Assembly (NCBI RefSeq): GCF_008369165.1
Contig: NZ_VOBA01000001.1
Span: forward strand, 2,349,630 to 2,413,629
Direction: 5' to 3'
From: Dietzia sp. ANT_WB102
GTDB lineage: Bacteria; Actinomycetota; Actinomycetes; Mycobacteriales; Mycobacteriaceae
Length of the DNA: 64,000 nucleotides
Shown here: positions 53,101 to 58,406 of the stretch, in pieces
How positions within the stretch are numbered: the stretch's first letter is position 1
How the letters are laid out: each line of letters starts with the position of its first letter
Notes under the pieces: model-generated
The model's input: only the letters and a program-made list of their open reading frames with translations
What the model was told of the DNA's origin: nothing
Databases searched by the model: none
Position numbers and translations under genes: made by a program

Positions 53101-53985
53101 GTGAACACATTGGTCCTCGCCGCGCCAGGTGTGGAAGGGATGTCCTGGCTGCAGGTCGTCGTCCTGTCCGCGATCCAGGGACTCACCGAGTTCCTCCCCG
53201 TGTCCTCGTCCGGGCACCTGCGAATCTTCTCCACCTGGTTCTTCGGAGAGGACGCCGGCGCGTCGTTTACGGCCGTGGTCCAGCTCGGCACCGAGGCCGC
53301 CGTCCTCGTGTTCTTCTTCAAGGACATCGTGCGCATCCTCGTCGCCTGGTTCCGGGGCGTATTCGACGCCGGGCATCGTCATGATCCCGACTACCGGCTC
53401 GGGTGGTTCGTCATCGTGGGGTCGGCCCCCATCGCCCTCATCGGATTCGTCGGCAAGGACTTCATCCGCGACGCCGCGCGCAACCTCTGGATCACCGCGA
53501 TCGTGCTCGTCGTGTTCTCGTTCGTTTTCCTGCTCGCCGAGAAGTTGGGCAGGCAGGACCGCCCCGTTGACGCGAAGTCACTCGACGGACTGACGATGAA
53601 AGACACGATCGTCATGGGGCTGGCCCAGTGCTTGGCCCTCATCCCGGGAGTGAGCCGCTCCGGAGGAACGATCTCCGCCGGACTCTTCCTCAACATGTCG
53701 CGTGAGGCCGCGGCACGGTTCTCGTTCCTGCTGGCGATTCCCGCCGTCCTTGCCTCGGGCCTGTTCAGCCTCCCCGACGCGTTCGCGCCGTCCGTGGGTC
53801 AGTCCGCGAGTGGGATCCAGCTCCTTGTAGGGTCCGCGATCGCGTTCGTCATCGGGTACGCGGCCATCGCCTGGCTGCTGAAGTTCGTTCAGAACCATTC
53901 GCTGGCCTGGTTCGCGGGCTACCGCGTCATTCTCGGAGCCCTGGTCATGATCCTGCTCGGCACTGGGACCATCCCGGCTACCTGA
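53101..53985 (+). CDS. uppP: Undecaprenyl-diphosphate phosphatase (UppP/BacA)
   Basis: This 294-residue membrane enzyme recycles the lipid carrier of peptidoglycan synthesis and gives bacitracin tolerance when abundant. Active-site motifs are [19 protein letters not shown] (E and S/H) and the inverted-repeat partner [17 protein letters not shown] with the catalytic Arg. About eight helices are seen. The start is a GTG at 53101 with gagagga upstream; the long open frame before it is antisense to lppL. TACTCT at 53033-53038 is a possible -10. Confidence 0.95.
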
Positions 53986-54048: not shown

Positions 54049-54753
54049 ATGACCGTCATCCTGCTCCGGCACGGCCGTTCCACCGCAAACACAGCTCTCA
54101 CGTTGGCCGGTCGAACCCCGGGGGTCAGCCTCGACGACACCGGCCACGCCCAGGCCGCAGAGCTGTGCCGGCGGCTCGGGGACCTGCCCGTCGAGGCGGT
54201 CGTTCGCTCGCCGCTGATGCGGTGCCGCCAGACTGTCGAACCTCTGGCCGGGACGTTGGGGGTGGACCCAGTGATCGATGATGCTCTCGTGGAGGTCGAC
54301 TACGGCGCCTGGACGGGTCGGCCACTCAAGGATCTCGCCACGGAGGAGCTGTGGTCGGTGGTCCAGCAGCATCCCTCGTCGGCCGTATTCCCGGAGGGGG
54401 AGTCGCTTGCCGACATGGCGGGTAGGGCGGTGACCTCCATCCGTCGACATGACCGACGACTCGCCGAGGACGCGGGCCGCGACGTGCTGTGGGTGGCGTG
54501 TAGCCACGGCGACGTCATCAAGGCGGTACTCGCGGACGCCTACGGTATGCACCTCGATCAGTTCCAGCGGATCGTGGTAGAGACTGCGTCGGTGTCCGTG
54601 GTGCGCTACACACCCCACCGGCCATTCGTGCTCCGGGTCAACGACACCGGCGGTGACCTGACCAGCCTGCGGGGGGACCCGGCCGGCCGGGTCGGAGACG
54701 CCACGAAGGGGCACGCCAGCTCGGACGCCGTCCCCGGAGGGAACGTAGCCTGA
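54049..54753 (+). CDS. Histidine phosphatase family protein (Rv2135c / MSMEG_4193 type)
   Basis: This 234-residue member of the phosphoglycerate-mutase-like superfamily has the catalytic RHG in VILLRHGRSTANTAL, the second Arg in VVRSPLMRCRQTVEPL, the acid residue in ALVEVDYGAWTGRP and the second His in VACSHGDVIKAVLADAYG. The last 25 residues are extra and polar. It is first of three co-directional genes always found together in actinobacteria near mshC. The substrate is unknown. It is not a glycolytic mutase, because the mutase-specific insert is missing. Confidence 0.88.
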   Translation: MTVILLRHGRSTANTALTLAGRTPGVSLDDTGHAQAAELCRRLGDLPVEAVVRSPLMRCRQTVEPLAGTLGVDPVIDDALVEVDYGAWTGRPLKDLATEELWSVVQQHPSSAVFPEGESLADMAGRAVTSIRRHDRRLAEDAGRDVLWVACSHGDVIKAVLADAYGMHLDQFQRIVVETASVSVVRYTPHRPFVLRVNDTGGDLTSLRGDPAGRVGDATKGHASSDAVPGGNVA

Positions 54754-54793
54754 TGATCCGAATCACCACTCACCCCATGAGGAGACCACCGGC

Positions 54794-55381
54794 ATGAGCA
54801 GGGCAGTGCACGAGTTCCGCGATCCGACCCGGTTCGTGGTAGGCACGGTCGGCCAGCCGGGCGAGCGGGTCTTCTTCGTCCAGGCCACCGAGTCGGGTCG
54901 GACCATCTCCGTACGGTGCGAGAAGCAGCAGGCCCAGATCCTCTCAGAGCGGATGGGCGACCTGCTCGACGAGATCGCAGCCAAGTCCGACATTCCGGTT
55001 CCGCCCGCCGGCGGGGTTGTCGACGACCTGGACCCGCTGGAGATGCCCGTGGACGCTGAGTTCCAGGTGGGAACCATGGGGCTGGGCTGGGACGGTGAAC
55101 ACAGCAAGGTCGTGGTGGAGTTGTTGGCCATGGACCCGTCCGCCACCGACGAGTCGGTGGTGCTGTCGGACGCCGAGGATGCCCCGGATGCCCTGCGCGT
55201 CTTCCTCACCCCGCAGCGAGCCCGTCAGTTCGTGCTGCGCAGCGAGCGGGTCGTCTCCGCCGGCCGTGCCCCGTGCCCGCTGTGCGGCGAACCTATCGAC
55301 ACCACCGGCCACCTGTGCGTCCGCCTCAACGGTTATCTCCCGCGGTCCGGTGAAGCGCTCACCGAGCTTATCGACCCGTGA
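54794..55381 (+). CDS. DUF3090 family protein with zinc-ribbon-like Cys cluster
   Basis: This 195-residue cytosolic protein has an N-terminal beta-rich part with FREDPTRFV-like FRDPTRFVVGTVGQPGERVF and FVQATESGRTISVRCEKQQA. A C-terminal Cys cluster, CPLCGEPIDTTGHLC, could bind zinc with the nearby His. It starts 40 bases after the phosphatase gene, and its stop overlaps the SCO1664-family start (GTGA, 55378-55381). I know the family only as a conserved actinobacterial protein of unknown role. Tight coupling suggests a complex with the next product. Confidence 0.85.
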   Translation: MSRAVHEFRDPTRFVVGTVGQPGERVFFVQATESGRTISVRCEKQQAQILSERMGDLLDEIAAKSDIPVPPAGGVVDDLDPLEMPVDAEFQVGTMGLGWDGEHSKVVVELLAMDPSATDESVVLSDAEDAPDALRVFLTPQRARQFVLRSERVVSAGRAPCPLCGEPIDTTGHLCVRLNGYLPRSGEALTELIDP

Positions 55382-56160
55382 CCACCCGCCCGGTTAGTCC
55401 TGAACTCACCGTGCTGTACCGGATCCCGTCCGGTAGCAACGCGGTCTACCACTGCGTGGACGCTTGGGGGGACAGCTGGGTCTACAAGCCATCGGCGGGG
55501 GAGCGGCCGCTGTTGGATTTCCCCGACGGCAGCCTCGCTGCGCGGGAAATCGCCGCGCACGCGGTGTCGGAGGCACTCGGGTGGGGTCTCGTGCCGCAAA
55601 CCGTTGCGGCGCACGGCCCGGGTGGGCCGGGCATGGCCCAGCGGTGGATCGCCGAGGTAGATCGGGAGCAGCGCCCCGGGCACGATCCCGTCGACGTCCA
55701 CCCCGCCGATGCCGTCCCAGGGAACCGGGCTGTGGTGCTGCGCGGGGAGGGTGACCGGGGGGAGGAGGTGGTGGTCGCCCACGACACCGATGACCGACTG
55801 CGACGCATCGCGCTGTTCGATCTTGTGGTCAACAATGCCGACCGCAAGGGCGGGCACGTCCTGGTTGACTCGGAGGGGGTCGTCTGGGCGATCGACCACG
55901 GGCTGTCCTTTCACACCGCGCCCAAGTTACGCACGGTCCTGTGGGGGTGGGCGGGTCACAGCTTCACCGACGACGAGGTTGCGGGCTTAGAACGACTCCG
56001 CGGCGAACTGGCGGAAGACGGCGACCTCACCGAGGCGCTGTCTGACCTGCTCTCCTCCACAGAGGTCGAGGCTCTCTCCGAGCGCGTCGTCGCCCTGCTC
56101 GCCAGCCGGGTCTTCCCCGTCCCCGGGCCCGGCTACCCCTTACCCTGGCCGCTCTTCTGA
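55378..56160 (+). CDS. SCO1664 family protein, PI3/4-kinase-like
   Basis: This 260-residue protein belongs to a family noted for weak similarity to phosphatidylinositol kinases. Kinase-like elements are visible: a possible phosphate-binding lysine K37 in [13 protein letters not shown], a catalytic-loop-like [11 protein letters not shown] with D155, and a metal-site-like AIDHGLSFH with D173. These match the HipA/PI-kinase pattern (D-R-K-x-x-x and D-x-G). It is translationally coupled to DUF3090 and sits next to a phosphatase gene. Activity and substrate are not established. Confidence 0.82.
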
Positions 56161-56185: not shown

Positions 56186-57439
56186 ATGCACTCGTGGTCC
56201 TCGCCTGTCGTCCCCTCGGTCCCCGGCGCCGGCGTTTCGCTGAGGTTGTTCGATACGGCGAGCGGGGAGGTCCGAGACGTGGCTCCCGGGCCGGTCGCGC
56301 GGATGTACGTCTGCGGGATCACCCCGTACGACACCACCCACCTCGGTCACGCCGCCACCTATCTCGCGTTTGACCTCGTCTACCGTCAGTTGCTCGACGC
56401 TGGCCACGAGGTTCACTACGTCCAGAACACGACCGACGTCGACGACCCGTTGTTCGAGCGGGCCGAGCGCGACGGTGTGGGCTGGCAGGAACTCGGGGAC
56501 CGCGAGACGGATTTGTTCCGGGCGGACATGGAGGCACTGCGGGTCATCCCTCCCCGCGACTACGTGGCCGCCACGGAAACCATCGACGAGGTGGTGGACA
56601 TGGTGGCGGAGCTCCTTGAGCGCGGCCACGCCTACTGCATCGATCCCGCGGTCGACGGTTACTCCGACGTCTACTTCCGTCATCGCGCCACGGAGGACTT
56701 CGGCTACGAGTCGGGGTACGACGACGAGGAGATGACGGTCGCCTTCGCCGAACGCGGTGGCGACCCGGACCGAACCGGCAAGGAGCACCCGCTGGATGCA
56801 CTCCTGTGGCGCGTCGAGAGGCCCGGCGAGCCGTCGTGGCCCTCTCCCTGGGGGGCGGGCCGACCCGGGTGGCACATCGAGTGCTCGGCGATCGCCCGCA
56901 ACCGCCTGGGGATGGAGTTCGATATCCAGGGCGGTGGTAGCGATCTGGCGTTCCCCCACCACGAGTTCTCTGCGGCGCACGCCGAGGCCGCGACGGGGGA
57001 GCAGCCCTTCGCTCGCTTCTACGTCCACGCCGCGATGATCGGGCTGGACGGAATAAAGATGAGCAAGTCGCTCGGCAACCTCGTGCGCGTGCAGGCGTTG
57101 CGGGAGGAGGGCGTTGATCCGGCGCTCATCAGGCTCGGGCTATTCGCCGGGCATTACCGTGTCGACAGGTCCTGGTCCGAGGGACTGCTCGAGGACGCTC
57201 GCGCCCGATACGAGACCTGGAACAGGGCGATCGCCCGAGGAGCCGGCGCAGACTCCGCTGCCGCGATCGGCGCTCTGCGTGAGCGGCTCGCGGACGACCT
57301 CGACACGCCGGGGGCGCTCGCGGCGATCGACGCGTGGGCGCGGGCGACGCTTGACGGCGACGCATCTGACGCGTCCGCCGGCACCGCCGTCGCGAACGCG
57401 CTGGACGCCCTGCTCGGTGTTCCGCCGGTCACGGATTGA
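56186..57439 (+). CDS. mshC: Mycothiol ligase: L-cysteine:GlcN-Ins ligase
   Basis: This 417-residue class I tRNA-synthetase-like enzyme joins cysteine to GlcN-inositol in mycothiol synthesis. It shows the zinc Cys in [17 protein letters not shown] with the HIGH-like [18 protein letters not shown] with the second zinc Cys, [12 protein letters not shown], and the loop [10 protein letters not shown]. The length is shorter than CysRS (about 460-470), as usual for MshC, lacking the anticodon-binding tail. Mycothiol is the main thiol of actinobacteria, so this gene fixes the taxonomic group. Confidence 0.95.
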
Positions 57440-57479: not shown

Positions 57480-58406
57480 TTAACCGGGATCCGGCTCATC
57501 TCGGTCGCCCCGTAGGAAGCGCTCGAACTCGGCGGCGATCGCCTCGCCGTCGACCAGGGGCATCGCCTCCCCACCCGACGCTCGTCCACGGTCGGGCTCC
57601 GGGTCGATACCGGGTGTCACCCCGGACTCCTCGTCCATCCGGTCTTCGAGGGACTGGATGTAGTCGCGCAGGTCCTCGTCCTCACCCGCGGCTGTGTCGA
57701 CCCGTTCGGCCCACGTCCGGGCCTGTACGCGCAGGGCGTCCATCGGCACCGCCATACCCAGGTTCTCGGCGAGCCAGGACAGCATCGCCTCGGTTCCGCG
57801 CGGGTTCGGTGGCGAGGCCACATAGTGGGGGACCCCCGCGAACACACTCAGAGTCGGCACACCCGCCTCGGTGAGCAGTTGCTGGAGTACGCCGGACATC
57901 CCGGTGGGCCCCTCGTAGTCCGATGCCTCGACGCCCATGGTCGACATCCGCTGCCGGCTGAATGCAGCGCCGGTCAGGGGGACCGGCCGGGTGTGCGGCA
58001 CGTCCGCGAGATAGGCGCCGAGCAGGACCACCTGGGTCACGCCGAGAGTGTCGACGAGGTCAACGAACTCGGAGGCGAACCTGCGCCACTTCAGGGCCGG
58101 TTCGGGCCCGCGCACCAACAACACATCGTTGGCGACGCCATCCGGGCGGCATGCAGACACCACGATCCGGGGCCACTCCACCGAGCGCGACACTCCGCCT
58201 GAGATCCGGACGACCGGCCGCTGCTCCAGGTAATCGAAGAACTCGTCACCGCCGACCTCGGCGATCTGGCGGGCCTCCCAGTTGAGCGCCAGGTGTTCGA
58301 TGGTGCCGGTCGCCACGTCGGCGGCGTCATTCCAGCCCTCGAAGGCCACGATCATCACCGGGCTCTCCAAATCGAGATGCCCGTCGGGACTCCATTGGAC
58401 AGTCAT
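57480..58406 (-). CDS. PAC2 family (proteasome assembly chaperone 2-like) protein
   Basis: This 308-residue protein matches actinobacterial PAC2 proteins such as Rv2125. Features are PVMIVAFEGWNDAADVATGT at the N-terminus, VVRISGGVSRSVEWPRI, VVLLGAYLADVPHTRPVPL and VPHYVASPPNPRGTEAML, a mixed alpha/beta fold related to nucleoside phosphorylases. The C-terminal 40 residues are acidic and probably disordered. It is linked to the proteasome only by fold. It converges with mshC. TAGGCT lies 6 bases before the ATG. Confidence 0.88.
   Translation of the reverse strand: MTVQWSPDGHLDLESPVMIVAFEGWNDAADVATGTIEHLALNWEARQIAEVGGDEFFDYLEQRPVVRISGGVSRSVEWPRIVVSACRPDGVANDVLLVRGPEPALKWRRFASEFVDLVDTLGVTQVVLLGAYLADVPHTRPVPLTGAAFSRQRMSTMGVEASDYEGPTGMSGVLQQLLTEAGVPTLSVFAGVPHYVASPPNPRGTEAMLSWLAENLGMAVPMDALRVQARTWAERVDTAAGEDEDLRDYIQSLEDRMDEESGVTPGIDPEPDRGRASGGEAMPLVDGEAIAAEFERFLRGDRDEPDPG

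Follow-up and report, generated by a model that had tools for sequence, protein, structure and literature searches.

The PI4K2/FAM20/HipA fold class of kinases also includes protein and sugar kinases. Type II phosphatidylinositol (PI) 4-kinases (PI4K2) carry a palmitoylated Cys-rich motif (CCPCC), the FAM20 kinases act in the secretory pathway, CtkA is a secreted kinase and HipA is a toxin paired with HipB, a DNA-binding partner. A protein predicted to have this fold is encoded in the window analysed here, a stretch of 64,000 nucleotides from Dietzia sp. ANT_WB102, where a histidine phosphatase, a DUF3090 protein and a protein of the SCO1664 family follow one another at positions 54049–56160 (Table 1). 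In contrast to the FAM20 kinases, CtkA and HipA, the SCO1664 protein has a phosphatase and DUF3090 as its conserved partners, and not a DNA-binding protein of the HipB type. The trio is a real, widespread unit, and we hold with moderate confidence that its three genes form one dedicated reversible-phosphorylation module in which DUF3090 serves as the adaptor.

Family membership of the three proteins

An earlier note on this DNA had proposed the trio, and the open reading frames (ORFs) were recovered with profile scores above all cut-offs. The phosphatase matches PF00300 (E 8.3e-45) and TIGR03848 (325.2 bits, cut-off 203.85), with its catalytic residues included; DUF3090 matches PF11290 (E 1.3e-60) and TIGR03847 (229.4 bits, cut-off 117.25); and the SCO1664 protein matches TIGR03843 along residues 9–260 (293.4 bits, cut-off 172.4). 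The kinase-like residues K37, D155 and D173 with their two surrounding motifs, the CPLC...C cysteines of DUF3090 and the GTGA coupling of the last two genes were all found in the places given for them, and the two flanking genes had likewise been named correctly: the one upstream matches UppP with 439 bits, the one downstream MshC with 662 bits. The phosphatase and DUF3090 genes are spaced by 40 bases.

The system had also been called undescribed, which stands in part. All three families are already NCBIfam models, yet no function for the three-gene unit, and no statement of the fold, substrate, fusion or His160 of these families, was found in the accessible portions of the literature searched by gene and family names, where the TIGR names themselves do not occur. 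The TIGRFAM texts presumably treat the three genes as one actinobacterial system that probably includes a kinase, and mention Chloroflexi for TIGR03843.

Table 1. Coordinates of the trio, its motifs and its flanking genes in the window
Feature	Positions	Strand	Basis	Remarks
Histidine phosphatase, branch 1, MSMEG_4193 subfamily (TIGR03848)	54049..54753	+	ORF call, profile matches	Catalytic R7, H8, R58, E82, H153
DUF3090 / TIGR03847	54794..55381	+	Profile matches	PUR/Whirly-resembling core (about residues 5-160) and C-terminal CxxC...HxC zinc-ribbon motif
Zinc-ribbon motif C161-x2-C164 ... H173-x-C175	55274..55318	+	Residue check	Within DUF3090
SCO1664-family kinase (TIGR03843)	55378..56160	+	ORF call, profile match, fold comparison	PI4K2/FAM20/HipA-type fold
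GTGA	55378..55381	+	Sequence check	Kinase-gene start overlapping DUF3090 stop
Catalytic loop NNADRKGGH	55831..55857	+		Kinase residues 152-160; D155 catalytic Asp, H160 at metal-Asn position
IDHG	55891..55902	+		Kinase residues 172-175; DFG-type metal Asp D173
UppP	53101..53985	+		Start 53101 or 53140; lineage-specific neighbour, outside module
MshC	56186..57439	+		Lineage-specific neighbour, outside module

Co-occurrence and order of the genes

The main sample comprised 296 Actinomycetota genomes with a completeness of 90% or more, of which 121 match TIGR03843, 122 match TIGR03847 and 139 match TIGR03848 (E<=1e-35). Both kinase and DUF3090 are found in 120 genomes and neither in 173, a contrast that takes as independent genomes which are in fact related. 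The kinase alone was seen once, in a genome (G165) whose 18.9-bit match lies far under the cut-off, and DUF3090 alone twice (G163 and G286), both times at contig ends, so that the joint conservation claimed for these genes is borne out. TIGR03848 is present at E<=1e-35 in 119 of the 120 genomes with both partners, and in the remaining one (G150) DUF3090 starts 20 bases from the contig end. A weaker phosphatase match (127–157 bits) with neither partner was found in 18 further genomes.

The 119 loci examined include 117 with the kinase, and at 101 of these the order is phosphatase, DUF3090, kinase on the same strand; the others show DUF3090 and kinase (11), the kinase only (3) or phosphatase and kinase (2). 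Of 141 loci, 76 offer a possible start for the kinase gene no more than 30 bases from the DUF3090 stop, and 19 would allow the two genes to overlap by 4 or 1 bases. At L125, L126 and L148 genes stand between DUF3090 and the kinase, which by eye resemble unrelated inserts.

The trio had been described as conserved in actinobacteria; it is indeed found there, the kinase occurring in 139 of 148 Actinomycetia genomes, but it is not confined to them. In Chloroflexota the kinase is present in 65 of 121 genomes, a count that includes the centre genome, chosen as kinase-bearing, and Chloroflexota lineage titles account for 51 of the best 80 of at least 592 relatives. The rows of the two phyla lie mostly apart in the kinase tree, whose bootstrap had not settled, with one Actinomycetota row on a long branch (L047) that groups with a Chloroflexota row. 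All 13 genomes of family f82, 12 of them of 1.2–1.5 Mb, carry the kinase, the gene that was searched there. A kinase from a 'Chloroflexi' bin (L139:9836-10657) falls inside Actinomycetia, as a misbinned contig or a transfer would.

The predicted kinase

The closest fold to the SCO1664 protein is that of the type II PI 4-kinases, and the PI4K2 kinase fold is recognizable in spite of an identity of 18–20% with PI4K2-alpha and PI4K2-beta. K37, E57, D155 and D173 are invariant in the aligned relatives (146/146 rows), a count biased toward the search pattern because 80 of the loci, the best 80 of at least 592 relatives found in a genome scan, were picked by patterns containing the DRKxGH loop and the GERPLWDF stretch. 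In the pattern-free count of 66 rows, in which one gene of genome G008 stands twice (L023 and L051), His160 is present in 66/66. This residue, five positions past the catalytic Asp, aligns with the Asn of PI4K2-beta and PI4KA, and in this respect the protein differs from a type II PI 4-kinase, which has a metal-binding Asn at that point. It also contains one Cys only (residue 26) and therefore lacks the palmitoylated CCPCC motif.

The profile checks suggested in the earlier note, against the PI-kinase and HipA families, left the window protein under threshold in both cases. PF00454 gave 19.7 bits (gathering 27.1), while 63 of 72 relatives match it at E<=0.01, the best at 1.6e-11; HipA_2 gave E 0.12 and 12 bits (cut-off 27), with matches at E<=0.01 in 7 of the 72 relatives.

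The phosphatase and DUF3090

The catalytic residues of the phosphatase are conserved throughout the 134 rows aligned: R7 and H8 in 130 (4 gaps), R58 in 132 (2 gaps), E82 in 132 (1 Asp, 1 gap) and H153 in 134. We take Rv2135c of Mycobacterium tuberculosis to be the orthologue of the window phosphatase. The accessible portion of PMC3866925 describes Rv2135c as an acid phosphatase, weak on p-nitrophenyl phosphate (pNPP) and with no mutase activity, which belongs to the same superfamily and adjoins a UppP gene. In Chloroflexota one fusion of phosphatase and DUF3090 is clear, a single ORF in an Anaerolineae bin (L083:8284-9844) that joins the phosphatase to a ribbon-less DUF3090 domain; a free DUF3090 comes next, then the kinase. 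A second may exist at L128, where both are read as a single ORF of 405 residues.

In DUF3090 the residues G20, G23, R25, F27, E43 and K44 are found in all 143 rows, and the three ribbon Cys in 130 of them. C161, C164, H173 and C175 form two pairs of possible zinc ligands, and there are weak Pfam ribbon matches. The core resembles the Pur-alpha, Whirly and MRP folds, which bind single-stranded nucleic acids (10% identity, best Foldseek E 4.1e-3), and unlike them DUF3090 carries an added zinc ribbon. The 16 families that 70 members match at E<=0.05 include no PUR family. A common NGRxxYYWT-like tail replaces the ribbon in the Chloroflexota proteins of L077, L078, L083, L085, L086, L091, L095, L098, L125, L141 and L148. 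Rv2134c and MSMEG_4192 are presumably DUF3090 orthologues. The part of PMC9425974 available lists DUF3090 as a putative metal-binding protein and notes its CxxC..HxC motif; as far as the other sources could be consulted, Rv2134c and MSMEG_4192 appear as one table row each in transposon screens (PMC11329110, PMC10127668), and there is a row in a ClpC1 interactome (PMC10433963), none of which was used as evidence.

A proposed reversible-phosphorylation module

In the module that we favour, the SCO1664 protein would be a PI4K2/FAM20/HipA-like kinase that uses ATP and has a catalytic loop of its own; D155, H160 and D173 would act as catalytic and metal residues, and K37 and E57 would form the ATP pair. 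The phosphate that it adds would be removed by the histidine phosphatase, unless the latter acts at an adjacent step of one short pathway, and the DUF3090 adaptor, with its PUR/Whirly-like core and usually a zinc ribbon, would hold or present the substrate and join both enzymes. We infer both the shared substrate and the adaptor role. That a kinase-like and a phosphatase activity meet in one unit, as the earlier note had it, agrees with the fold, the residues and the tight coupling of the genes; the tie to envelope or thiol metabolism that went with this idea is not supported. A unit of this composition that is kept in two phyla probably has a basic role.

Several observations weigh against such a module. 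The phosphatase is variable, since 11 genomes have DUF3090 and kinase only (one of these loci, L122, begins at a contig end); among the 11, TIGR03848 is found above cut-off elsewhere in one (Bellilinea, 27 kb away), and one other has a match of 186 bits. The kinase stands alone at three further loci. Kinase and phosphatase occur without a TIGR03847 match in Corynebacterium glutamicum, taken as a control genome, and without DUF3090 at L050 and at a Frankia locus (L107). The zinc ribbon is absent from 12 Chloroflexota DUF3090 proteins, the second fusion (L128), where the DUF3090 start still has a Met, could reflect a sequencing error or the loss of a stop, and the activity of Rv2135c is broad and weak according to the portion of PMC3866925 consulted. 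The activity of the kinase is itself only predicted, and the His at the metal-Asn position could mean another reaction. As for DUF3090, its absence from some loci, together with its staying beside the kinase where the phosphatase is absent or apart, gives the pattern of a useful, dispensable adaptor.

At the Frankia locus (L107:7190-8897, Candidatus Frankia nodulisporulans) no DUF3090 lies between phosphatase and kinase. L050:9392-10766 is a second phosphatase–kinase pair without DUF3090 in G008, a genome that also has a full trio (L051), and a horizontal gain of this pair is suggested because its kinase groups with rows of Actinomycetota family f29 in the kinase tree.

Inositol lipids as a possible substrate

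The type II PI 4-kinases being the nearest fold to the SCO1664 protein, a link with inositol lipids was tested. The kinase might phosphorylate PI and the phosphatase remove the phosphate, in a bacterial phosphoinositide cycle that possibly touches the step from phosphatidylinositol phosphate (PIP) to PI; we regard this as unlikely, in spite of a contrast in Actinomycetota. With G165 left out of the trio set, a homologue of PIPSynth (NF045883) was found at E<=1e-12 in 122/122 trio genomes and in 89/174 others, and a hand tally by family at E<=1e-25 gave 28/28 against 18/38, although the genomes behind the contrast are not independent. MshC, which likewise depends on inositol, or an MshC-like gene (344–446 bits, under the cut-off) was found in 78 genomes, and 73 of these have the kinase. 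Synthesis of phosphatidylinositol 3-phosphate in mycobacteria has reportedly been the subject of a study. The enzyme that dephosphorylates PIP to PI is termed as-yet-unidentified in the accessible text of PMC4634129 (2015) and unknown in that of PMC7502851 (2020).

The same 89 Actinomycetota genomes, however, have the PIPSynth homologue without the trio, which is thus not needed for PI synthesis. Chloroflexota offer no contrast at all, with homologues in 40/40 genomes with the kinase and 40/40 without it (the first 40 of 64 kinase-bearing genomes and the first 40 of 56 not listed as kinase matches); kinase-bearing G458 has a partial 50-bit match only. The curated PIPSynth cut-off is reached in only 31/296 Actinomycetota and 0/80 Chloroflexota genomes, and some of the homologues may be related enzymes because most lie under it. 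Three of four kinase-less Actinomycetia genomes tested (G312, G344 and G381) have PIPSynth above the cut-off, and the fourth (G396) has matches of 33–35 bits only; the assemblies being drafts, a gap at the kinase is possible there. The fold class, moreover, extends to protein and sugar kinases. Within these samples the trio was confined to genomes that are likely to make inositol lipids, yet such synthesis does not depend on it.

The idea that the trio phosphatase is the missing PIP phosphatase lost ground because PIPSynth homologues also occur in genomes without the trio, and as the sole enzyme from PIP to PI it is disfavoured because kinase-less genomes have PIPSynth. In its fullest form the proposal is quite unlikely: the trio would be a phosphoinositide switch of Actinomycetota and Chloroflexota, with an indigenous rather than injected PI-kinase of a new subfamily, a His-type metal site, its own phosphatase, a PUR-like adaptor and an inositol phospholipid as substrate. 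Action on PI, if true, would mean that bacteria have a lipid switch like those of eukaryotes, with consequences for the phosphatase step of their PI synthesis. Some 7 kb from the trio of L083, possibly by chance, lies a gene (972-1607) like archaetidylinositol/phosphatidylinositol phosphate synthases (141 and 118 bits, neither reaching the cut-off).

Nucleic acid and scaffold readings

The fold of DUF3090 also points toward nucleic acid, and the trio could act on or with single-stranded nucleic acid, with DUF3090 binding RNA or single-stranded DNA through its PUR-like core and ribbon and the enzymes modifying the nucleic acid or its proteins. We consider this improbable. Action on RNA or protein, if true, would make the trio a new reversible-phosphorylation system.

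Little probability is likewise given to a SCO1664 protein that is a pseudokinase-like scaffold, or a transferase of another group, next to a phosphatase that is a metabolic enzyme sharing the operon. An invariant His160 in place of the metal-binding Asn, the PF00454 score of the window protein and the loci that lack the phosphatase are the points in its favour. Four invariant residues, K37, E57, D155 and D173, are however atypical of pseudokinases, and the FAM20 kinases, which also lack the Asn (with Glu there), are active.

Mycothiol, UppP and other neighbouring genes

That the trio serves mycothiol or envelope (UppP) metabolism, the function proposed in the earlier note, is very improbable and was rejected as the main explanation on the kinase genomes without MshC, the rarity of UppP and the trio of Chloroflexota. 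MshC does adjoin the trio in the window, and in the 148 Actinomycetia genomes it largely accompanies the kinase (both in 136, kinase only in 3, MshC only in 1, neither in 8), an association that could arise from neighbours lost or kept together. In the main sample MshC is above cut-off in 30 of the 296 genomes, all 30 with the kinase, but 91 of the 121 kinase genomes are without it, so the kinase does not occur only with MshC, and 48 of these lack even an MshC-like gene; excluding the weak match of G165, the figures are 90/120 and 47/120. Two genomes of 1.2 Mb (G367 and G385) have kept the kinase and show no MshC at E<=1e-140, and in G008, G198, G356 and G362 the trio and MshC are distant or on separate contigs. 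In C. glutamicum mshC is under its own SigH promoter, according to the part of PMC3489674 available. SCO1664 is described as invariably close to mshC in the accessible text of PMC4255298, a rule that has exceptions, given the four unlinked genomes and the absence of MshC from G367 and G385.

UppP recurs in 10/119 loci and in 0 Chloroflexota loci, by a neighbour clustering in which ORF picking may miss some genes, and the Chloroflexota neighbours differ, so that the tie to both genes is one of position. The clustering yielded no fourth conserved partner, the recurring neighbours being lineage-specific. By Pfam, with one or two members each, these are PAC2, CorA, aldo/keto reductase, FrhB-type, DUF6183 and response-regulator/ParA proteins; EtfAB, GDPD, FumC, RecO and a helicase were recognized by eye from the sequence. 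A PAC2-family protein is encoded in the window as the second gene past the kinase (57480-58406, reverse strand), and in 12 other loci its cluster is represented close to the trio. In six related loci the kinase is followed by a gene cluster of which both members scanned (L058:10436-11437 and L137:1933-2916) match DUF6183.
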